Below are positions 215 through 43,091 of a DNA stretch of 64,000 nt, in pieces (position 1 is the first letter of the stretch; every line of letters begins with the position of its first letter). The DNA comes from Synergistetes bacterium HGW-Synergistetes-1 (GTDB lineage: Bacteria > Synergistota > Synergistia > Synergistales > Synergistaceae), in NCBI GenBank assembly GCA_002839185.1, contig PGXO01000005.1:1-64000 (forward strand). Reading direction: 5' to 3'. A model generated the notes under the pieces. That model was not told the DNA's origin, ran no database searches, and worked only from the letters and a program-made list of their open reading frames with translations. Both the position numbers and the translations under genes were made by a program.

Positions 215-2281
215 CTATATTTTCAGAAGTTCTTCCGCTACGCTTTTCGGTACTTCGTCATAATGATCAAATGTCATCGTATACGAAGCTCTTCCTGACG
301 TCTTGCTCCTGAGGTCCGTTGCGTAACCGAACATTTCTGCAAGAGGAACAAAAGCTTTGACTATCCTGGCATTGGCTCTTGAACCCATTTCAGAAATTTT
401 ACCTCTTCTTGACGAGATGTTTCCCATGACATCACCCATGTATTCTTCAGGCACTACCACTTCAACATCCATTATTGGCTCCATAAGAACCGGGTCAGCC
501 TTTTTAATAGCTTCTTTGATCGCCATGGATCCGGCAATTCTGAAAGCCATTTCGGAACTGTCGACCTCATGGTAGCTTCCATCGACTATCGCGACCTTAA
601 TCCCTATTACCGGGTAGCCGCCAAGAATTCCGTTATTAAGAGCTTCCTCAACACCTTTTTGGGCTGCCGGAATATACTCTTTCGGTACAGAACCGCCAAT
701 TATACGGTCTTCCCATTCAAAGCCCCTTCCTCCGGCAAGAGGTTCAACTTCGAGGACTACGTCCCCGTACTGTCCCTTACCTCCGGACTGGCGAACAAAC
801 TTGCCCTGGGCCCTTGCGGGTTTCTTTATAGCTTCTCTGTAAGCGACCTGCGGGCGTCCTACCTTTACCTCTACATTGAACTCCCTGCGGAGCCTGTCAA
901 CAATAATCTCAAGGTGCAGTTCGCCCATTCCGCTTATCAGCGTCTGGCCCGTTTCCTCATTTACTGCAACATGGAAAGTCGGATCTTCCTCAGAAAGAGC
1001 GTCAAGTCCTTTTGCAAGTTTGATCTGGTCTGCCTTGCTCATTGGCTCAACGGAAAGCGAGATAACGGGCTCAGGGAATATAAGGTTCTCAAGAAGTACG
1101 GGGTCTTTTTCATCGCAAAGCGTATCCCCCGTACGTACCTGTTTGAGTCCCGGTATTGCAACTATAAGCCCTGCCTGTGCGTTCTCCAGTTCTTCACGTT
1201 TGTTTGCGTGCATCCTGAGTATCCTGCCTACTCTTTCACGGCGTCTTGTGTTTGTGTTGTAGATAGACATTCCGTTCTCAATAGAACCTGAATATATCCT
1301 GCAGAAAGCAAGCCTTCCGACAAAAGGATCGACCATGATCTTGAACGCAAGAGCAGAAAAAGGCGCATCTGCGGAAGGATGGATCAATATCTCTTTTTCT
1401 AAGTCGTCAGGATCGTGAGCTATGAGCGGAGGCATGTCCAACGGGCTTGGAAGATATGCGACGACTGCGTCAAGAAGAGGCTGCACACCTTTGTTTTTAA
1501 ATGCCGAACCGCACATGACCGGTACTATGTTGAGACCTATCGCTGCTTTTCTGATGGTCCTTCTGATCATGTCTTCGGGGACTTCCTGGCCTTCAAGATA
1601 GAGGCGCATCATTTCATCATCATAATCAGAAAGGTTCTCTATCATTTCAGACCTGGCAATCTCTACCTCTTCTTCAAGCTGAGGAGGTACTTCTGCAAGA
1701 TGAAATTCTGTTCCAAGCATGTCATCATAGATTATCGCTTTTCTGGCTACGAGGTCCACCATTCCGGCAAAACCGTCTTCCACACCAATTGGTATCTGAA
1801 TAGGAACAGCTCTCGCACCAAGACGCTTGCGCATCTGGTCTACAACGGAGAAAAAGTCCGCCCCTACCCTGTCCATTTTGTTGACGAAAGCGATCCTGGG
1901 AACATGGTATTTGTCAGCCTGACGCCATACTGTTTCTGACTGGGGTTCAACTCCGCCAACTGCACAAAAAACGGATACTGCCCCGTCAAGTACTCTCATA
2001 GAGCGCTCAACTTCAACAGTAAAGTCCACGTGCCCGGGTGTATCAATTATATTGATAAGGCAATCGCCCCAGAAACAGGTAGTCGCGGCAGATGTGATCG
2101 TGATACCACGCTCACGTTCCTGGTCCATCCAGTCCATTGTTGCAGCACCTTCATGAGTCTCACCCAGTTTGTGCTTACGGCCTGTATAGAACAGAATTCG
2201 CTCTGTCGTCGTAGTTTTACCCGCATCTATATGCGCAGCTATTCCAATATTGCGCACTTTACTCAAGTCGATGCCCTGCAT
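215..2281 (-). CDS. fusA: Elongation factor G
   Basis: EF-G is the translocation GTPase of the ribosome. The protein is 688 residues, the normal length. G motifs are visible: [12 protein letters not shown] near residue 16, DTPGHVDF near 80 and NKMDR near 134. The domain IV/V region continues to a normal C-terminus. I chose the ATG at 2281 ([11 protein letters not shown]), which matches the family start. A TTG at 2296 in the same frame would add five residues and is less likely. It lies between rpsG and tuf in the classic str order. Confidence 0.97.
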
Positions 2282-2329
2282 CGTCAACACCACCAAACTA
2301 AAACTATTTTGAAATTTTTATTCTTTTTA

Positions 2330-2800
2330 CTACCAGCGATAGTGTGCAAACGCACGGTTTGCTTCAGCCATGCGATGCGTATCTTCTCTCTTCTTTACAG
2401 AGCCGCCTTCGCCTTTACAGGCATCTGTGAGCTCGCGGGCAAGACGTTCTACCATTGGTATGCCCTTGCGTGAACGAGAGAAATTGATGATCCAACGAAT
2501 CGCAAGAGCCTGCGCTCTTTCAGGTTTAACCTCTACAGGAACCTGATATGTTGCTCCGCCAACTCTCCTTGGACGTACTTCGACGAGCGGACGAACGTTA
2601 GTCATCGCTTTTTCAAATACTTCTGCAGGTTCGATAGTAAGCCTGCTTCCAGCCAGATCCAGTGCTCCATAAAAAATTCTCTCAGCCGTGCTCTTTTTTC
2701 CGCCGAGCATTAGGCAGTTGATGAATTTTGAAATTGCCGGGTTCGCATAAACTGAATCGGGCGGCGTTATACGTTTTTTTACATGTCCTTTGCGTGGCAT
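2330..2800 (-). CDS. rpsG: 30S ribosomal protein S7
   Basis: S7 is a primary 16S rRNA binder in the 30S head near the E and P sites. The full length of 156 residues begins [10 protein letters not shown] and keeps the typical [11 protein letters not shown] stretch and the C-terminal [10 protein letters not shown]. The ATG has a GGGAGGT site nine bases upstream. It lies 30 bases after rpsL and 48 before fusA, so it is co-transcribed. In other bacteria S7 represses this operon; no S7-site structure was demonstrated here. Confidence 0.98.
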
Positions 2801-2830: not shown

Positions 2831-3202
2831 TTACTTCGGTCTGCGAGCGCCGTAGAGCGAACGGCTCTGACGACGGTTTTCAACGCCGCCGCAGTCAAGA
2901 GTTCCCCTGATTATGTGATAACGAACACCAGGTAAGTCCTTTACACGTCCACCACGGACCAGGACTACAGAGTGTTCCTGTAAATTATGTCCTACACCCG
3001 GTATATAAGCAGTGACTTCTATTCCGTTAGTAAGACGCACACGTGCGACTTTACGGAGAGCAGAGTTAGGCTTCTTCGGTGTAACTGTATAAACACGCGT
3101 ACAAACTCCGCGGCGCTGTGGGTTCTCCTGAAGTGCAGGGGCGCTCATGCGACGCCTCTTGTCCTCTCTGCCGTTACGTATAAGCTGGCTTATTGTTGGC
3201 AA
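2831..3202 (-). CDS. rpsL: 30S ribosomal protein S12
   Basis: S12 is the decoding-centre protein of the 30S subunit. The protein has 123 residues. The loops where streptomycin resistance usually arises are wild type: [12 protein letters not shown] and [14 protein letters not shown]. The start codon is TTG at 3202, supported by GGAGGG seven to eight bases upstream; no ATG is available in a sensible place. It follows the L7Ae-like gene by 32 bases. Confidence 0.98.
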
Positions 3203-3234: not shown

Positions 3235-3483
3235 CTACTTTTTAAGAAGTGCCGCCGCCGCAGTCTTTCTTGTCACGGCGCAAGCTCTTCCCAATTGCAA
3301 TGATGTTTCTGCCCATTCTACGGGCACTCCTCGTTTTGCGGCCTCTGTCAATATTTCTGCTTTCAGGGGAATATCCGCTTCTTTAGAAATAAAAATCTTG
3401 CTTACTCCATCGGCCTTAAGCTTCCTCAGAACTGAGTTTACCCCAGCTATCCTTCTGGATGAAGCGAGTTCGTTTAAAGGCAC
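3235..3483 (-). CDS. L7Ae/L30e-like K-turn RNA-binding protein (YbxF/RplGB type)
   Basis: This 82-residue protein matches the bacterial L7Ae-like proteins found between rpoC and rpsL in Firmicutes-type operons. They bind kink-turn RNA; their role on the ribosome is not settled. The family pattern is visible: [24 protein letters not shown], followed by the hydrophobic GVPVEW strand. An in-frame GTG at 3510 would give 91 residues. However, an ideal GGAGG lies inside that extension, five bases before the GTG at 3483, so the shorter form is preferred. It is the first gene after an internal promoter at 3517-3545. Confidence 0.88.
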
Positions 3484-3516
3484 ACGAACACCTCCTGTGC
3501 AAAGGCGCACCAGAGT

Positions 3517-3545
3517 ATATTAACAGCGGAAGCCTCCGGTGTCAA
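3517..3545 (-). promoter_or_regulatory. Promoter of the L7Ae-rpsL-rpsG-fusA-tuf unit
   Basis: On the minus strand TTGACA (3545-3540) and TAATAT (3522-3517) are separated by exactly 17 bases. It lies downstream of rpoC and 34 bases before the L7Ae-like start. The -35 box falls inside the hairpin at 3524-3566. Confidence 0.7.
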
Positions 3546-3566
3546 TAAACACCTTTGCTTCCGCTG
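3524..3566 (-). terminator. Long hairpin after rpoC, probable terminator or attenuator
   Basis: Outer arms CAGCGGAAGC (3524-3533) and GCTTCCGCTG (3557-3566) pair perfectly over 10 bp. An inner GGTGT/ACACC stem pairs as well. On the minus strand it is followed by TTAATATA, only moderately U-rich, so partial rather than full termination of rpoBC transcripts is likely. It overlaps the promoter of the downstream unit. Confidence 0.6.
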
Positions 3567-3619: not shown

Positions 3620-6600
3620 TTATTTGTCAGCTAATGCTAACGTTTCAGCATGTACTGAAACCGTTGGTTCTGCATTTTCGGTGATCTCAACTTTCCTGTA
3701 CCTCTCAATGCCCGTTCCTGCCGGTATCAGAAGTCCTATTATTACGTTCTCCTTAAGTCCTACCAGGTTATCGACATCCCCTCTTACAGCCGAAGCTGCA
3801 AGTACCTGGGCCGTCTGCTGGAACGACGCTGCAGAGAGGAAACTGTCGGTGGCAAGTGCCGCCTTGGTAACGCCGTGCACAACCGGTCGCCACTGTGGCT
3901 CTTCTCTAAGGCGCCTTACAAAGGATATCCTCTGTATAAGTTGTTTGAAATCCGAAGGTGCCTGTTTCGGACGAACTGTTATGTCATTTGCCCCTGATGA
4001 AGCGATGTTGTCTAGGACTTTACTGGTAATTTCCTGACCTGCTTCTGCGACAATGTTTCCTTTTTCGTCCTTTACATTTTCGAGAAGAACTTTACCAAGC
4101 GCTCTCTCAGTCAATACCTGTCTGATGACCTTTTCCCTTGTGATTATATTTCCTTCGCTTTCGATTCCCGATATAGACCCTTCGACTATTCCCCTGACAA
4201 TTGAACCATCAATGCTGTGGATGATATTTTCGATTACCTCCCCATCAGAGTTAATAGCCTGTGTAAGCGGTTTGCCAAAGTAATGCTCGATCAGAACATG
4301 ATGCATCGAATCGGTCAGGTTGATATGCTCAGGTGATTTCCAAAGTTTTATTTCGTTAATGTTGTTTGCACTCAATGTCTTTATTGCAAGGGAGTCGACC
4401 AGCGCATCCATAGGAATGATCACTTTGCCGTCCTTCTCAACATCGGCAGCAAACCATGCCGCGTCTTCGCTCTCGTCAAGGACATTAGTATCCCTTACCA
4501 GCATCGGCCGCGGAGGCATAGCAACGATCTTTGCAAGGTCTGTTGCTGAGAGTCTGGTCCCGGCTTTGATAATAACTTCGTCATGTCCTTCATACGTTAA
4601 TTCCTTAATAAGCTCAAGCCCTTCCGTAGCCCTTCGGAAGCTTGCGTCTCCCAATACTACGCGCAGTTCGCCGTCCTTATCCTGGACCAAAAGTTCCCCT
4701 GCTGCTCCACCCGGCTTTAGCATCTCTCCGAGCGCCGCCTTTGTTATCTGATCCGGGGCATCACTTTCTTTTTTGATAATATCTCCCGGCGCATCAACTA
4801 TTTTACAGTCCCTGAGGAAATTGTATGATTCATCCAGAGAAGCCTGATTTTGATCCGAGATCACCCTGACGCTATCCTCAAGGTCTTCTTTCCATACCAG
4901 CTCACCAGAAACAAAAGAACTGTCTCCTTCTTCCAATACCCGAACACGGTTCACCGGCGCAACTTTGCGCAGTATAGTCTCAATGTGTTTATCATTAATC
5001 GAGACACCCTGTGACCGGTAAACTTCCTGGATACCGTCAAGCAGATAATGCTGTACCGCCTCAAGACCCTCTACTTCCAAGAGCTGCTGAGGATCAATGT
5101 ATCCCTCCGTCAATAACATTCCCTTTGATATAGTACATCCCTCTTCTATTCCTGAGAGCAGGTTCTGGGATGCCGGGATATTATAGGAGATCCTTTCCTC
5201 AGATCCGTCTTCTTTGACTACACCAATGATCAGTTTTTTCTTGCCATCCATCTCCCTGATCTCAAGGAGGGTCCCTCCAACTTCAGCAAGAATGGCAACC
5301 TTTTTGGGTCTGCGGACTTCGAAAAGCTGTTCTATCCTTGGAAGACCCTGAGTAATGTCTTCTCCTGTAAACTGACGAACTCCTCCTGTATGGAAGGTCC
5401 TCATTGTGAGCTGTGTTCCAGGTTCACCGATAGACTGAGCTGCAACGACTCCGACAGATTCTCCTATCGCTACCCTTTTCCTCGTTCCAAGATCCCTGCC
5501 ATAACAGGCTCTGCATATACCATGCCTCAAACCGCATGTAAGAGGGCTGCGTACCCAGACTGAAGTTATGCCAATAGATTCAATGTACTCTGCTTTTTCA
5601 GCTGATATCTCTTCATCCCTAACAAGCAAAGGTTCACCTGTAACCGGATGTGGAATATCCCGGAGGCTGGTCCTTCCCGTGAGTCGCTCAGACATGGAAA
5701 TAGTAGCCTTACCATCCTGTTGGAGGAGAGGGCGTATTTCAACGCCAAACTCAGTACCGCAGTCTTCTTCCATTATTATCAGGTCCTGGGCTACATCAAC
5801 AAGGCGTCTGGTAAGATAGCCAGATTTTGCTGTACGGAGAGCTGTGTCGGCAAGCCCTTTCCTTGCTCCGTGCGTGGAAATGAAGTATTCGAGCGTATTG
5901 AGACCCTCTTTGAAGTTTGCTACTATAGGATAACGAATGATCCTTCCGGAAGGGTCTGCCATAAGGCCGCGGATTCCGGCCATCTGGGCCACCTGCCCGC
6001 GTGAACCTCGAGCTCCTGAATCTACCATTATCTTCAAAGGGTTGGTGTCCTTCATGCTGTCCATGATCTTATCAGCAATGCGACGTCCAGCGTCAGACCA
6101 GAGGATATCCTTCTGTCTCATGTACTCGTCTTCGGTAAGTATTCCCATTTCGAACTGTGAAGTAAGATCCTCTTCCTGTACAAGCGTCACATCCAGTATC
6201 TCTTTCTTTTCGGGAGGCACTATTACATCCCCGACTCCAAGGCTTATGCCGCTGTATGTCGACCAGCGATACCCGAGCGTCTTTATCTCGTCAAGCATCT
6301 CGACCATAGCGGTCTGTCCTACCTTGTCGTATGCCGTATCCAAAAGTGAGCCCATCTCTTTTTTATTTATGGTTTTGTTGATGTATCTCAGATCCGGATG
6401 AAGTGCAGAATTAAAGAGCACACGGCCCGGTGATGTTTCTATCCACTTTCCGTCAACTGTTTCACATTTCCATTCAGGGTCAGCTTTCAGTCTGATCTTC
6501 GAGTTAACGTTGACAATTGAATGATCAAGAGATGACATAACATCCTCAACATCAGAGAAGTGGAGTCCCTCTCCCTTAAGTCCGTTTCTCATGCTGGTCA

Positions 6601-8632
6601 GGAAGAAAACACCAAGGATTATGTCCTGTGTCGGTATGACTACAGGTTTCCCGCTGGCAGGAGAGAGGAGGTTGTTTGAGGAAAGCATAAGCACTCTGGC
6701 CTCAGTCTGAGCCTCCAGCGAAAGCGGCACGTGAACGGCCATCTGGTCTCCGTCAAAGTCTGCGTTGAAAGCAGTACAAACCAGAGGGTGCAGCCTTATT
6801 GCCTTTCCTTCGATGAGGACAGGCTCAAATGCCTGTATTCCAAGCCTGTGAAGGGTAGGCGCACGGTTGAGCATAACAGGATGGTCTTTGATTATCCCTT
6901 CCAGTATTCCCCAAACTTCGTCTCTGCCTCGTTCTATAAACCTTCTTGCACTCTTGACATTTGGAGTAAGACCGCTTTCTACAAGCTTATGCATCACAAA
7001 AGGCTTGAAAAGCTCAAGCGCCATCTGTTTAGGAAGGCCACACTGGTATAATTTCAGACTTGGCCCTATTACTATGACAGAGCGTCCTGAATAGTCCACC
7101 CTTTTGCCAAGCAGGTTCTGGCGGAAACGTCCTTTTTTACCTCTGAGCAGGTCTGTCAGACTTTTTAGCGGCCTATTGCCTGCTCCAAGCACTGCCTTGC
7201 CCCTGCGTCCGTTGTCTATTAGCGCGTCAACAGATTCCTGCAGCATCCTCTTCTCATTGCGCACTATGATCTCAGGCGCTTTTAGCTCCTGAAGCTTGCG
7301 AAGACGGTTGTTCCTGTTGATGACCCTTCGATAAAGGTCATTCAGATCGGAAGTTGCAAAACGTCCTCCGTCCAGCTGAACCATCGGGCGAAGATCCGGG
7401 GGAATTACCGGCAGAACAGAAAGAACCATCCATCCAGGTTTGCTGTCGCTCTTTCTGAAATCTTCAGCGACCTGGAGTCTCTTGACCAGTTTCCGCTTCT
7501 TTTGGCCTGAGCACTCCGCAATATCTTCCCTAAGTGAGGAGACAAGTAAATCGATATCCATCTGTTCCAGAAGTGTATATACACCTTCCGCTCCGATCCC
7601 TGCTCCGAAGGTTTTGTCGTAGGCCGCACAAATAGTCTCTTCCCTCTCAAGGATTATGTCGGCTCTGTCGAAAGGGGACTCTCCACCATTGATAACGATA
7701 TAGCACGGGTCTTCCAGGGTCTCTGTCTCTTCTACCGTCTGGAAGCGTTTTGGGTACTTTTGGTTGTAAAGTCTGTATTCACTTTCGGAAATAACATCAT
7801 TCTTTACAAAAGGCAGATGGACGACAGAAGTCACTATGAAGGCATCCTGATTGTTCAGGACCGCCCTTTCAAATTTAAGCTCACTGTCTGCCTCTTTCAT
7901 CGCCTTGATCTTTGATTCAGCGATGATGGCATTGGATACCTGCTCGTCACCTTCTTTGAACATACGGTACGCAGGCTCTGTCTTGAAGAGTTCGTCACCG
8001 TACTCACTGAGGATACGGTTGACTTGGGACGCAGTTATTACATCACCCTCGTCAACGTTTATCTCTTCAACCTTTGTGATCCGGAAGGCCTCTTCTGCTT
8101 TGAACTTGGGATCGTAAAAACGGTGGATACGCTCTTCAGAAGCCGATATGAGCTTGCCCCTGCGGGCAAGATCTATTCTGCGGCCTTCGCTTACCACCTT
8201 ATAGACCTTCTCCCTCCGGCGTGTGGGAGCAAAATAGACCACCTTTTCGAGCTCTTTTGTAGAAGCTCCCAGCAACAGGCTAAGCCTGCTAGGGATACCT
8301 CTGAGATACCAAATATGTACCACCGGAGCTGCAAGTTCAATGTGTCCCATTCTCTCTCTGCGAACGCGGTTATCTGTGACCTCTACTCCGCAGCGGTCAC
8401 AGACAACTCCCCTGAACTTGGGGCCACTTCTTTTGTATTTTCCACAGGCGCATTCATAACTGCGGGTAGGACCAAATATTCGTTCACAGAAAAGTCCGTC
8501 TTTTTCCGGCCGGAGCGTCCTGTAATTGATAGTTTCAGGCTTTTTCACTTCACCGCTCGAAAGCTCCCTGATCCTTCCGGGAGAGGATAGTTTTGTCCTT
8601 ACTCCGGCGATTTCGCGATTTACGTTAGCCAT
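3620..8632 (-). CDS. rpoC: DNA-directed RNA polymerase subunit beta'
   Basis: Catalytic beta' subunit of RNA polymerase, 1670 residues. The N-terminal zinc ribbon (CACGKYKR and CDRCGVEV, residues about 61-85) is intact. The Mg-binding NADFDGDQ lies near residue 626. A second zinc site is [17 protein letters not shown], followed by the trigger-loop region. The active site lies about 160 residues later than in E. coli because the N-terminal third carries an extra segment, as in several non-proteobacterial lineages. The ATG at 8632 overlaps the rpoB stop by one base (TAATG), indicating translational coupling. Confidence 0.98.
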
Positions 8633-11600
8633 TAGATATCATCCCCCTGGTCGACCTTTTTAGGAGCAACATCACTAAAGAGATCCGTATCCCCATCCCT
8701 GAGCACTTCAGCTTCTTTATCTGCATCTGTCTCGTGCAGCTCTAACGGACTGTATTCTGCCGCATGTTCATGGAAGAGATCGTTGTCTATTGTTACTTTT
8801 GATGGGCGGCTCAAACCAAAATCTTCCTCAAGGCTGTCCACTGTAGAATCAGGCTTGAATGACACATGACGCCTTGATTCCCTGCCGCTGTCATCGTCTT
8901 CTTCTGAAAGCACAAGCTCTCCAAATGACCCGTCTGAGTATTTAATCTCAACATCCAGACCAAGTCCTTGAAGCTCTTTGATAAGCACCCTGAAACTTTC
9001 AGGGACACCGGGCTTGGCAAGATTTTCACCCTTAACTATTCGTTCGTAAGTCTTAAGCCTTCCTCTGATGTCATCGGATTTGACAGTAAGCATTTCCTGG
9101 AGCATGTGTGCGGCTCCATATCCTTCAAGAGCCCAGACTTCCATTTCACCGAACCTCTGGCCTCCGAACTGGGTCTTACCTCCCAGAGGCTGCTGCGTAA
9201 TCAGGCTGTAAGGCCCTATCGAACGTGCATGGATCTTGTCGTCGACAAGGTGTATCAGTTTGAGCATGTACATTACTCCGACCGCTACCTTGTTTGCCAT
9301 TGGTTCCCCTGTTCTGCCATCGTAAAGAGTTATCTTGCAGTCGTCTCTCATCTCGGGATATTTAGTTTCCTGTATTTTTTTAACATAAGGCATCAGGTCT
9401 TCTGCTGTCGCAGACTCAAATACAGGGGTCACAACCTTCCAGCCATTCTGCATAGCGACAAAACCCATTACAGTCTCGAGAACCTGACCAAGATTCATTC
9501 GGCTCGGAACTCCAAGAGGGTTAAGGACAACGTCAACAGGCGTACCATCTGAAAGATATGGCATGTCTTCTTCTGCCATGATTCTTGAAACAACACCCTT
9601 GTTTCCGTGACGTCCAGCCATCTTGTCACCCTCTGTGATCTTGCGGAACTGAGCAACATAGACCTTTACAACTTCGTTTACTCCGGGACTCATGTCTTCG
9701 CTGTTCTTATCCCTCGAAAGCCTTTTGATCTCTACTACTTTTCCGCCCTCACCATGGGGAACTCTCAAACAGGTGTCACGAACTTCGCGGGCCTTTTCTC
9801 CGAATATTGCTCTTAAAAGTTTTTCTTCAGGAGACTGGTCTGACTCTCCCTTAGGCGTTACTTTGCCTACAAGGATGTCTCCGGCCTTGACTTCCGCACC
9901 TATTCTGACAATCCCATCTTCGTCAAGATTTTTAAGAGCATCCTCTCCAACGTTCGGTATATCTCTTGAAATCTCTTCAGGACCGAGTTTAGTATCACGT
10001 GACTCGACTTCATATTCTTCGATATGTATAGAAGTGTAAAAATCTTCTTTGACCAGTTTTTGACTGAGAAGTATGGCGTCTTCAAAGTTGTAGCCCTCCC
10101 AACATACGAAAGCAACCACAACATTTCTTCCCAGAGCAAGTTCTCCCCCGTAGCATGCCTGACCGTCAGCAATAACCTCATCGGCCTCTATGCGCTGACC
10201 ATTTGCAACTATAGGCTTCTGGTGGATAATGGTACCCTGATTGGAGCGTCTGAATTTGGGCATTGTATAGATATCTTTGTCATTGTCTTCCGTCGTAATC
10301 TCAATACGGTCGGAATCTACATATGTGACCGTGCCTGCCCTTCTTGAAACAGAACATGACCCTGAGTCCTTCGCAATGCGATGTTCTATCCCTGTACCCA
10401 CTATAGGTGAATCGGGGAAAACAAGAGGCACAGCCTGTCTCTGCATGTTGGATCCCATCAATGCCCTGTTCGCGTCGTCATGTTCAAGGAATGGGATCAA
10501 AGCAGTTGATATCGAAACTATCTGCTTTGGTGATATGTCCATATACTGCAGCTGTTCCGGCAGTATCTCTATAGTGTTGTCATGATGTCTGACATATATT
10601 CCTGTACCGCCGTCTGTAGGCAACACGTGTCCTTCGTCAGAAATTGGCGTATCAGCACGTCCGACATAGTACTCATCTTCGTCGTCCGCAGAAAGGTAAA
10701 CTATCTCATCGGTCAGCATCCCGTTTACCACTTTTCTCCTGGGACAAACAAGAAAGCCGTACTCGTTGATCCTTGCAAAAGTCGCAAGGGAAGTTACCAG
10801 TCCTATATTAGGCCCTTCAGGCGTTTCTATAGGACAGACCCTTCCATAGTGGGTATGATGGACGTCACGAGCTTCAAATCCTGCTCTTTCTCTGCTCAGG
10901 CCACCGGGGCCGAGAGCGGAGAGACGGCGACGGTGCGTAAGCTCGGCAAGAGGGTTGGTCTGATCCATAAACTGAGAAAGCTGTCCTGAACCAAAAAATT
11001 CCCTCAGTGCAGCAGATATGGGCCTAACATTGATAAGGTCCTTGGCCATCGCGGTAGCAAGATCAGGAGTCGTTGTCATACGTTCCCTTGCTATCCTTTC
11101 CATCCTAAGAAGACCGATCCTTACCTGATTCTGGAGAAGCTCTCCAACGGCCCGGACCCTTCTGTTCCCAAGATGATCGATGTCATCCATATGTTCGTTT
11201 CCTTCGCGGAGCCTGATCAAACCTTTTATTATCGCGACTATATCTTCAACTGAAAGAAGGCGTTCTGTACTTGGAGTATCAAGGTTCAGCCTTCTGTTGA
11301 TCTTGTACCTTCCGACCCTCCCGAGATTATATCTGCGGGGATCAAAGAAAATACTGTTGATATATTCTCTGGCATTTTCCATACGGGCCGGTTCATTTGG
11401 CCTTAGTTTACGGAAAAGTTCAAGCATTGCCGCATCCGGGGTGGTTGTGTTGTCTCGTTCGATAGTGGCAGATATGGCTGGATCTACATCCCATACCCAG
11501 ATTTTTGTCCGGCCGCTTTCCCAAAGTGCCTCAAGATCCTCTTTAGTAAGCCTTTTGTTCTTCGGGATAGCAACAGCCCCGTCACCCTCGCCTGATACTA

Positions 11601-12330
11601 TAGCTTCTGCAAGGAGCATTCCTTTTACTTCATCTTCAACGAGGTCTCTTTCTACTTCCTTGGCTCCGAAAAGTGACAGAAGCTCATCCGTGGTCTGAAT
11701 GCCAAAAGCTCTCAGCATCAAAGTGACAGGTATTTTTTTCCTGTTGTCGATCTTAACTGAGAGCACTTCACCGGGTGCAAGATCAAATTCTATCCATGCT
11801 CCGCGATCCGGTATCAGTTTTGCCAAAAATGATTCCTGTCCGGGGATGCCTAATTCAGCGCTTAAATAAACGCCTGCCGATCTTGCAAGTTGATTAACAA
11901 CGACACGCTCAGTGCCGTTGATTATAAAAGTTCCTCTTTCTGTCATTGCAGGGAAATCACCGAGGTAGATTTCCTCTTCCTTGATCTCGCGTGTCTTCCT
12001 GTTGGCCAGCCGAATCGTCGCACGCAGAGGTCTCGACCATGTAAGGTCCCTGCTACGCGCCTCATCCAGACTCATAACCACCGGATCAACATAGTATCTT
12101 ACGAATTCAAGGGCGAATGAACCGTCATAACTTTCGATAGGAAAAACCTCATCGAAAAGTTCCTGCAGACCTTGTGAATTCCTAACGTCAGGATCAGTAT
12201 CAGACTGGAAAAACCACTGATATGAATTGCGCTGGACTTCAACAAGATCCGGTAGAGCGATTAGATTTTTTTCCTTTCCAAAAACCTTGCGCTGCTCAAA
12301 AGCCTTGCCTGATGGAGTCTTAGCCTGCAT
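8632..12330 (-). CDS. rpoB: DNA-directed RNA polymerase subunit beta
   Basis: Beta subunit of RNA polymerase, 1232 residues from the ATG at 12330 ([14 protein letters not shown]). That start has GGGAGG eight bases upstream. A longer frame reaching 12408 has no such site and runs into the promoter. The rifampicin-binding cluster is wild type ([29 protein letters not shown]). The conserved [16 protein letters not shown] and [15 protein letters not shown] segments are present. The acidic C-terminal tail ends DQGDDI. Confidence 0.98.
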
Positions 12331-12387: not shown

Positions 12388-12415
12388 ATTATAGCAAAAA
12401 AGCGACAACTGTCAA
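12388..12415 (-). promoter_or_regulatory. Promoter of rpoBC
   Basis: Minus-strand TTGACA (12415-12410) and TATAAT (12393-12388) are both perfect consensus with a 16-base spacer. Transcription should start near 12381, giving a leader of about 50 bases before rpoB. The -35 hexamer sits within the loop and second arm of the tRNA-Leu terminator. Confidence 0.85.
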
Positions 12416-12430
12416 TAGACAGGTGTCGCC
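12396..12430 (-). terminator. Intrinsic terminator of tRNA-Leu
   Basis: A 12-bp stem (12402-12413 with 12418-12429, one mismatch) with a four-base loop is followed on the minus strand by six T. It lies 16 bases beyond the tRNA 3' end. It shares bases with the rpoB promoter. Confidence 0.88.
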
Positions 12431-12445
12431 TGTTTTTGATTTGAT

Positions 12446-12532
12446 TGGTGTCGAGGAGGGGAATTGAACCCCTATGGGCGCTAGCCCACTGGATCCTGAA
12501 TCCAGCGCGTCTACCAGTTCCGCCACCCCGAC
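12446..12532 (-). tRNA. tRNA-Leu (anticodon CAG), CCA encoded
   Basis: The minus strand folds as a class II tRNA with a variable arm. The acceptor GTCGGGG pairs with CCTCGAC (one G-U). The D region reads GGCGGAACTGGTAGACGC. The anticodon stem CTGGA/TCCAG encloses loop TTCAGGA, giving anticodon CAG for CUG codons. The T arm GGGGTTCAATTCCCC is standard. The discriminator A is followed by a genomic CCA (12448-12446). A strong terminator follows. Confidence 0.96.
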
Positions 12533-15887: not shown

Positions 15888-15910
15888 CTACACCGCATAC
15901 AATTGCTCAA

Positions 15911-15954
15911 AATAAAAATGAGAGACGGAATTATCGGTCTCTCATTTTTATTTG
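15911..15954 (+). terminator. Terminator of the polyferredoxin-AOR-carrier operon
   Basis: AAAATGAGAGAC pairs with GTCTCTCATTTT around a ten-base loop and ends in a T-run. It lies about 27 bases after the carrier gene. The next gene's -35 box begins inside its tail. Confidence 0.9.
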
Positions 15955-15980
15955 AGACATTGTCTTTGTAGTCATATAAT
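15952..15980 (+). promoter_or_regulatory. Promoter of the LysE-family gene
   Basis: TTGAGA (15952-15957) and TATAAT (15975-15980) with a 17-base spacer. The start site would be near 15987, giving a leader of about 25 bases. Confidence 0.75.
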
Positions 15981-41207: not shown

Positions 41208-43091
41208 ATGCGATCGGAATGGAAAATAACCGCCTGCCCGCACGACTGCCCCTGTGCCTGTACTATCTGGGCCAGATATCGTGACAGTAAGGTCGAAATG
41301 AAACCCCATGATAATAATAAATGGACGGAGTTCATATGCCCAAAGGGGCTCCGTTATGCTGAACGGGTTTTTGACCCCAGAAGGCTAAAGACTCCTCTGC
41401 TTAGATCAGGCAGCGGCTGGGAAGAGGTCACTTGGGAAAAAGCATGGTCCATCTGGGCAGACAAGGTTTCTTCGGGGATATCTGAGTCAGGTCCCCTATC
41501 TTTGATGTATTACTCAAGCGCCGGATCCATGTACTTTTCAAAGGGACTTATCCCGCATATTTTCAATGAACTGGGAGGATACACAGGAACAAGGGGATCG
41601 CTCTGTTCAAGCATCGGATCATCGGGACTTAAGGACGCCACTCTGGGATGGGGTGTTCCGTTCCTGACTCCTGAACTTCAGTCTGAGGCAAAGGGCATAA
41701 TGCTTTGGGGAAGAAATTCCCTTGTAACGCAACCACAGATAAGGCAGGTCTTCCGCAAAGTACGAGAAAATGGCGGCGAAATAGCATCCCTTGAGGTAAG
41801 AAAGACTGAGACTATGGAAAACTCAGACAGGTCATGGTACATTGCTCCCGGAGGAGATTTTGCCCTGGCTGCATGGCTGTGCAAAAAAATGATCAGTTTG
41901 GGTGCATCTTCTCACGTATGGGAGAGCAGGGTCATAAATTACGAGGAATTCCTTGCTCACCTCATAAGTCTTGACGAAAAAAAACTTCTTGAAACTGCCG
42001 GAATAGATGAAAAAACTGCAAAAGAAATATTATCCTGGCTGATGAAGTTCCGGCCTGTGACACATATGCCATCTTACGGGTCCCAAAGATATCTCCACGG
42101 AGACATGCAGTTTAAGTGGATGTTTGCCTTATCTGTGATCTCAGGCGGCTTCGAAGATCCGCGTTCAGGCCTCAGTTTCGGAAAATACGAGCATGCGCTC
42201 TTTCCAAAAGAACTTATCCCCCGTTCTGACGATGTACGTAAATTCGGAACAGGCACGATGGGAAAAGAAATCCTTGATGCCTCACCAAAGATAAATGTGC
42301 TTCACATAACAAATGCAGACCCTGTTATGCAGAACCCCGGCAGTTCCGGCATAGTCAGGGCCATGAGATCGGTCCCGTTCAAGGTATGCACAGAAATATT
42401 CATGACCGAGACCGCGAAGGAGTGCGACCTTGTCCTGCCTGCAGCGACATATCTGGAAGAGGGGCATGACTGGCTCGGTTCATACTGGCACAGCTTCCTC
42501 GTCAGGAGCGAGAAGATCGTCGAGCCTCAGGGAATGGTAAAGTCTGACATAGAGATCTATGACGGACTGGCAAAGACCCTTGGACTGAAGACCAACCTGA
42601 TAGAATTATATGAAGAAATGGACAGGCTGATGCTTAGTGGAAAGAGACTGGAAAAGGTGTCAGAAGGACTTTATGAATGGCAGGAGCCCATATACTGGAC
42701 CGACCGCGGAACTATGGCGAAACTGCCTGCCAATATTCCTGCACTGCGTGTTAGTGAAAAGGAAGAACTGAGGCTTGTCACCTTCCACGTGAAAGATTAT
42801 ATCAACGGACACAGCTGCGATGCCCCAAGCATACCGGATATCCCTGATATATATTTGTCACCTGATGATATGGAAAAGATCAGTCTGGAAGAGGGCGATA
42901 TGGTAACAGTCTATTCAAGGACAGGAGAACACATCGTAATGCGCACAAAGAGAGATGCTTCACTCAGAAAAGGCCTCGCTTCAGCAAAGCAGGGCGTGCC
43001 CGGCATAAACTTTCTAACAGAAGCACAGGAAGCTCCCGGCTGCGGAGCCCCCTATGCGGACACTTTTGTAAAGATCGAAAAAATCATTTAG
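41208..43091 (+). CDS. Molybdopterin oxidoreductase (DMSO reductase family), single subunit
   Basis: A 627-residue enzyme with bis-molybdopterin cofactor. The N-terminal [4Fe-4S] motif is CPHDCPCAC with a fourth cysteine in FICPKG. TRGSLCSSIG likely supplies the metal ligand. The C-terminal domain carries SPDDMEKISLEEGDMVTVYSR, the usual dinucleotide-binding beta-barrel. There is no Tat signal and no electron-transfer or anchor subunit nearby, so it is a cytosolic enzyme of unknown substrate. The ATG follows GGAGG. ACPHDCPCAC has an extra cysteine between the second and third ligands. Confidence 0.85.
   Translation: MRSEWKITACPHDCPCACTIWARYRDSKVEMKPHDNNKWTEFICPKGLRYAERVFDPRRLKTPLLRSGSGWEEVTWEKAWSIWADKVSSGISESGPLSLMYYSSAGSMYFSKGLIPHIFNELGGYTGTRGSLCSSIGSSGLKDATLGWGVPFLTPELQSEAKGIMLWGRNSLVTQPQIRQVFRKVRENGGEIASLEVRKTETMENSDRSWYIAPGGDFALAAWLCKKMISLGASSHVWESRVINYEEFLAHLISLDEKKLLETAGIDEKTAKEILSWLMKFRPVTHMPSYGSQRYLHGDMQFKWMFALSVISGGFEDPRSGLSFGKYEHALFPKELIPRSDDVRKFGTGTMGKEILDASPKINVLHITNADPVMQNPGSSGIVRAMRSVPFKVCTEIFMTETAKECDLVLPAATYLEEGHDWLGSYWHSFLVRSEKIVEPQGMVKSDIEIYDGLAKTLGLKTNLIELYEEMDRLMLSGKRLEKVSEGLYEWQEPIYWTDRGTMAKLPANIPALRVSEKEELRLVTFHVKDYINGHSCDAPSIPDIPDIYLSPDDMEKISLEEGDMVTVYSRTGEHIVMRTKRDASLRKGLASAKQGVPGINFLTEAQEAPGCGAPYADTFVKIEKII

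Follow-up and report, generated by a model that had tools for sequence, protein, structure and literature searches.

Promoters that overlap putative terminator hairpins at both edges of rpoBC in Synergistales

The window, by which we mean the whole 64,000-nucleotide stretch of DNA that was analysed, comes from a 2.17-Mb genome of the family Synergistaceae, order Synergistales. Its minus strand carries, in this order, tRNA-Leu, rpoB, rpoC, a gene for an L7Ae-like ribosomal protein, rpsL, rpsG and fusA, and at each edge of rpoBC a promoter and a hairpin occupy the same bases, an arrangement that we refer to as a composite (Table 1). The only Rfam family that scored above its gathering cut-off in the window was tRNA, and neither composite was matched. 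The rpoC product is unusually long and several NCBIfam profiles align to it only from about residue 330, which suggests that its N-terminal region carries an insertion.

The composite at the end of rpoC is located between rpoC and the L7Ae-like gene on the minus strand (3517-3566) and reads, from 3566 to 3517, CAGCGGAAGC AAA GGTGT TTATTG ACACC GGAG GCTTCCGCTG TTAATAT. All 10 of the 10 pairs in the outer stem are Watson-Crick, and the promoter has a 17-nt spacer, matches the consensus at 10 of 12 positions and carries TG before the -10. A sequence-only reading had described a TTGACA-17-TAATAT promoter in a perfect 10-bp hairpin after rpoC, and each of these features is present in the sequence. 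The tail after the hairpin is TTAATATAC, a poor U-tract, so that a terminator is less secure here than at rpoB. Approximately 53 nt of AT-rich, unused sequence separate the rpoC stop codon from the hairpin; the overlap is therefore not forced by a shortage of space. The predicted transcription start leaves a leader of approximately 27 nt before the likely GTG codon of the L7Ae-like gene, and a short leader with a Shine-Dalgarno sequence is conserved at this point among relatives. A leaderless start of the L7Ae-like gene at 3510 was considered and dropped, because the reading frame upstream of 3483 is not conserved in other families. The leader opens with GGTGC...GCAC immediately before the Shine-Dalgarno sequence (3511-3483, minus), a pattern kept across most families that could form a hairpin for autoregulation.

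The composite in front of rpoB (12429-12388, minus) contains a promoter of the form TTGACA-16-TATAAT, which matches the consensus at 12 of 12 positions and overlaps a hairpin. Hairpin and T6 tract together would close the tRNA-Leu unit and contain the rpoB -35, and the T6 tract is of textbook form, unlike the tail at the rpoC edge. The proposal that the same composite occurs twice in one operon chain is thus borne out by the sequence at 12388-12429. A third, looser case had been suggested at 15952, where the T-tail of a terminator does touch a -35, but both this -35 and its spacer lie outside the stem and the arrangement is one of plain adjacency. Closer to the rpoB start codon, the Shine-Dalgarno sequence GGGAGG is sequestered in a hairpin of the form GGGAG-N4..8-CTCCC just before the ATG (12349-12328, minus). 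The GGGAG/CTCCC pattern is found at approximately 46 of 70 Synergistales rpoB loci, in families f1, f2, f5, f6, f7, f9 and f10, and is a candidate for translational control of rpoB.

Table 1. Positions of genes and sequence elements at the two rpoBC edges and at the adjacent site of comparison
Feature	Position	Strand	Basis or remark
fusA	215-2296	-	downstream of rpsG, codirectional
rpsG	2330-2800	-	downstream of rpsL, codirectional
rpsL	2831..3202	-	downstream of L7Ae-like gene, codirectional
L7Ae-like ribosomal protein gene	3235..3483	-	likely GTG start at 3483 after AGGAGG
Predicted transcription start	3510	-	inferred from spacing, 7 nt past -10
rpoC-edge -10 TAATAT	3517..3522	-	directly after stem, preceded by TG (TGTTAATAT)
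rpoC-edge outer hairpin, 3' arm (GCTTCCGCTG)	3524..3533	-	fold; makes up most of promoter spacer
rpoC-edge apical inner hairpin GGTGT-TTATTG-ACACC	3538..3553	-	5-bp stem, holds -35
rpoC-edge -35 TTGACA	3540..3545	-	recurs at same junction in Synergistales relatives
rpoC-edge outer hairpin, 5' arm (CAGCGGAAGC)	3557..3566	-	fold; pairing kept with compensation
rpoC (beta', 1670 aa)	3620..8632	-	NCBIfam TIGR02386
rpoB (beta)	8632..12330	-	NCBIfam TIGR02013; ATG at 12330, start read from sequence
rpoB -10 TATAAT	12388..12393	-	
T6 tract of putative terminator	12396..12401	-	within promoter spacer; T-run nearly invariant in 31 genomes
rpoB-edge hairpin GCGACACCTGTC-TATT-GACAGTTGTCGC	12402..12429	-	12 positions, one mismatch; fold, covariation in relatives
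rpoB -35 TTGACA	12410..12415	-	loop plus 3' arm
tRNA-Leu(CAG)	12446..12532	-	unit that the rpoB composite would terminate
Terminator hairpin, then TTGAGA (15952-15957) -17- TATAAT (15975-15980)	15910..15980	+	adjacency, not fusion

A search of the whole 2.17-Mb genome for TTGACA-N16-18-TAWWAT gave 40 sites, compared with 8 for the pattern read backwards. At each of the 40, any stem whose 3' arm falls within the -35 or spacer was given a score, using shuffled flanks as the control. Three of these near-consensus promoters gave a stem score above 26, where the shuffles predict 0.07, and these were the rpoC edge, the rpoB edge and a site upstream of ylxM-ffh-rpsP. The excess over chance that had been put forward as a genome-wide check was therefore observed. 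A 462-kb sample of the genome, biased because it was chosen around promoter sites, returned the same three sites and one divergent operator pair. On these counts, which are based on the pattern search, the flanks of all 40 sites and the biased 462-kb sample, overlap of hairpin and promoter is rare across the genome and far above chance where it is present; it belongs to a few loci and is not a genome-wide habit.

The rpoB-edge composite is found in most of the order, one example being GGTCGCGCCATGTC-TGTT-GACATGGCGCGACC-TTTTTGCTATTAT, and persists where tRNA-Leu is not directly upstream. A count of stems in register gave 42 of 70 loci, an underestimate because rows of family f7 were misplaced and six loci were unplaced. 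Covariation was tested on 23 sequences, using rows with a 17-nt spacer only (MAFFT misregistered the rows with a 16-nt spacer). In this set 90.1% of the cells in the stem are paired, compared with 31-53% when the register is slid, and two-sided changes are seen at 11 of the 14 pairs. The covariation value is 0.562 against 0.256 for shuffled alignments, and 0 of 500 shuffles reached the real alignment on any measure. Where helix positions depart from Watson-Crick pairing they are far more often G-U than A-C (58 vs 12), and this holds when distinct events of family, position and pair are counted (26 vs 6, p = 0.0005, to be taken as a guide only as related genomes are treated loosely). An excess of this kind is what a hairpin in RNA of the transcribed strand would produce, and the asymmetry is unexpected of a DNA palindrome. 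Directly after the stem, a run of five to six T hardly varies from family to family, although a T-run is not something that the promoter requires. Covariation analysis can in this way reveal double-coded terminator-promoters without transcript data.

From the same 23 sequences we built a covariance model, R1, which represents the 17-nt-spacer type and excludes the 16-nt-spacer type found in the window. The rpoB site of the window is the top R1 match in its own whole genome (E ~5e-6), and genomes that were not used in building the model also match. Comparing the positions of rpoB with those of R1 matches showed that 76 of 115 genomes have a match immediately upstream of rpoB. About ten genomes (G049, G022, G013, G025, G006, G043, G056, G082, G068 and G074) have another R1 match at the junction that follows rpoC, in G068 and G074 just after rpoC, so that a model of one composite recognises the other. 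In a further genome, G134, the two best plus-strand matches share a contig and are separated by 8.7 kb, a distance that would fit the two rpoBC edges. A weak R1 match at G000:C1:43116 was set aside as a plain terminator that lacks a -35.

At the junction downstream of rpoC, the spacing from rpoC to the L7Ae-like gene and the promoter recur throughout Synergistales, with a -10 of TATTAT or TAATAT in relatives and a tail of TTAATAT or TTATTAT in most of them. A promoter could be read at 64 loci, and at 35 of these it is overlapped by a stem with a score of at least 9, compared with 0.45 expected. The letters of the stem vary by genus (CAGCGGAAGC, CAGCGTATGC, CGGGCGGCC, AAGAGCCCGG, CGACCTGGTGCTATG, AGGAACCGTGTC and AACCGGGGAG, each with its complement). 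Across 12 Synergistaceae, six pairs of this stem show two-sided change and the covariation value is 0.263 compared with 0.111 after shuffling, a level that 0 of 500 shuffles reached; the inner apical hairpin is paired in only 65% of the cells in these 12. At this junction G-U outnumbers A-C (18 vs 10, or 15 vs 9 as distinct events), but not significantly. The tract after the stem, TTAATATAC in the window, is TTATTATAT in many relatives and GATATTATG, also poor, in f7.

Several lineages provide natural experiments in which the two elements are separated or lost. In genus g7 the hairpin at the end of rpoC and a plain promoter of the str genes are separate elements approximately 75 nt apart, while in genera g12 and g16 and in genome G023, where rpoC has lost its linkage to the str genes, the gene finishes with a strong, plain hairpin. 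Taken together, the separate elements of g7 and the hairpins of unlinked rpoC suggest that the fused hairpin reads as the end signal of rpoC; the hairpins of unlinked rpoC in Synergistales also have weak tails. The fusion at the L7Ae site is absent from families f2 and f10 and from parts of f3, and the rpoB hairpin has been lost in genera g7, g8, g12 and g16, so the fusion is not essential. As a separate observation, the L7Ae-like protein was not detected in Synergistaceae genera g2, g7, g8, g12 and g16, which largely coincide with the lineages that lack the rpoB hairpin. The suggestion that the repeated overlap looked like design rather than chance can be upheld for the two composites flanking rpoBC, which are conserved, have compensatory stems and are cross-recognised, but not as a genome-wide design, given the small number of loci.

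We therefore consider it probable, at roughly 0.7, that in Synergistales each edge of rpoBC carries a fused intrinsic terminator-promoter, which finishes one transcript and starts another. The overlap, its conservation and the covariation of the stems were computed, as were the strand-specific tolerance of G-U and the conserved T-run at rpoB; from these we infer that termination and initiation actually take place at the composites, with termination well supported at the rpoB edge and more weakly at the rpoC edge. In each composite, of approximately 50 bp, RNA of the preceding unit, which is tRNA-Leu or a leader in front of rpoB and rpoC itself at the second edge, would fold into a hairpin that, with its U-containing tail, would end the upstream transcript. 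At the DNA level the -35 would come from the apex and 3' arm, the spacer from the remainder of that arm and the -10 from the AT-rich bases that follow the stem, and the units opened would be rpoBC at one edge and L7Ae-rpsL-rpsG-fusA at the other. The polymerase would therefore halt on reaching the -10 or immediately short of it, with only a few bases left before the new start. An AT-rich tract suits both the weak RNA-DNA pairing of termination and the DNA melting of initiation.

With less confidence, we suggest that the fused arrangement shields the new promoter from read-through and positions the released polymerase for re-initiation, coupling the units; the benefit could be that polymerase reading through is kept from occluding the promoter, or that the released polymerase can start again there. 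Single-molecule experiments in vitro have shown that polymerase can stay on the DNA after intrinsic termination and re-initiate at nearby promoters (PMC6978322; PMC6978380), and one of these studies raises the possibility that an operon is thereby coupled to sense promoters next to it (PMC6978322). In these recycling studies terminator and promoter are separate, whereas the Synergistales composites share bases and re-initiation at them is hypothetical. A polymerase relay kept by selection, in which polymerase released at the tRNA-Leu terminator would stay on the DNA to transcribe rpoB and polymerase released at the end of rpoC would pass to the str genes, seems to us unlikely. If true, the synthesis of polymerase and of the translation machinery would be coupled by physical hand-over.

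Covariation and the G-U excess demand only an RNA hairpin, so a structure that does not terminate has to be weighed as well. The hairpin could be an RNA-processing or 3'-end-stabilising structure, such as an RNase III site, that overlaps the promoter within a read-through tRNA-Leu/rpoBC/str transcript. The weak U-tract at the rpoC junction is in keeping with this, but processing does not need the nearly invariant T5-6 run directly after the rpoB stem, and a hairpin ends rpoC even where no str genes follow; we regard processing as unlikely. Palindromes at promoters are usually operators, and the ylxM-ffh site looks like one, so the inverted repeat might instead act as DNA, either as an operator for a dimeric regulator or as a cruciform that blocks the -35. 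At rpoB and rpoC, however, the arms keep no recognition sequence between genera and change in concert, and a DNA palindrome would treat G-T and A-C alike, in contrast to the preponderance of G-U at rpoB, making this reading improbable.

Two further explanations were considered. In template-switch mutation one arm is copied anew from the other, a process that can both generate and mend hairpins in a way that resembles compensation (PMC8794818); perfect arms would then arise neutrally, with the promoter alone under selection. The process may explain the long, variable outer arms at ylxM. It predicts neither a T-run nor an excess of G-U over A-C, nor that the hairpin should keep a constant distance to the -35 in many families, and we consider it very improbable. 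Least likely of all is a chance meeting of an ordinary terminator with an ordinary promoter where intergenic space is tight: individual overlaps must occasionally arise by chance, but 3 in 40 promoters against 0.07 expected, recurrence throughout the order and the unused sequence before the rpoC-edge hairpin, which removes any constraint of space, all argue against it.

The fused terminator-promoter reading sets the composites apart from the systems that they most resemble. The rpoB site shares with intrinsic (rho-independent) terminators a GC-rich hairpin, a short loop and a T-run directly after the stem; unlike in ordinary intrinsic terminators, stem and T-run double as the -35 and spacer of the next promoter, and at the rpoC site the U-tract is weak. 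Most terminators of E. coli and B. subtilis lie within approximately 1000 bp of a promoter (PMC11347151). In mycobacteria, rpoBC expression is governed by tandem promoters that interfere with each other (PMC6181997), and an attenuator in E. coli rpoBC is cited in the same paper. Several genera of Synergistaceae in which tRNA-Leu is not directly upstream have an additional promoter-like sequence, TTGACAAAA...CATAAT (resembling TTGACA...CATAAT), 60-100 nt upstream of the rpoB composite (L093-L102). The composite would there serve as attenuator and second promoter, so that rpoB is preceded by promoter, attenuator and promoter in turn. In this respect these genera resemble the mycobacterial and E. 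coli operons, where upstream transcription acts on a second promoter; Synergistales differ from mycobacteria in that an intrinsic terminator appears to be fused to the downstream promoter. Synthetic bifunctional terminator-promoters in yeast combine both activities in one element (PMC10298055), but these are engineered and eukaryotic, whereas the Synergistales composites are natural and bacterial. We found no description of a natural terminator-promoter fusion of this kind in the open-access literature searched; terminators, promoters and their adjacency are ordinary, and it is the order-wide element sharing bases at both edges of rpoBC that we did not find described there. The composites would thus represent a natural, conserved case of stop and start signals sharing bases at the genes for RNA polymerase itself, where evolution in Synergistales has kept the overlap while rewriting most letters of the hairpin. 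They also make coupling by re-initiation testable, since the parts can be separated and the arms swapped with the promoter letters kept.

The two strongest hairpin-promoters found elsewhere in the genome were rejected as examples of the same element. The ylxM-ffh-rpsP promoter sits in a perfect 20-bp palindrome (G000:C6 ~42047-42100, minus; L082 12047-12100) that has its own separate terminator upstream and no U-tract. In relatives the core CTGTMAAG-N7/8-CTTGACAG is kept and the outer arms change together. The two arms of this site thus hold a conserved recognition sequence, which the rpoB and rpoC edges lack, and the palindrome is a candidate regulator site of the ffh operon. The other, near 6847 of L071, is a pair of divergent palindromic operators, in which promoters facing away from each other share two inverted TTATTGACATATGTCAT palindromes that enclose the -35 boxes (L071; G000:C1 ~126834).
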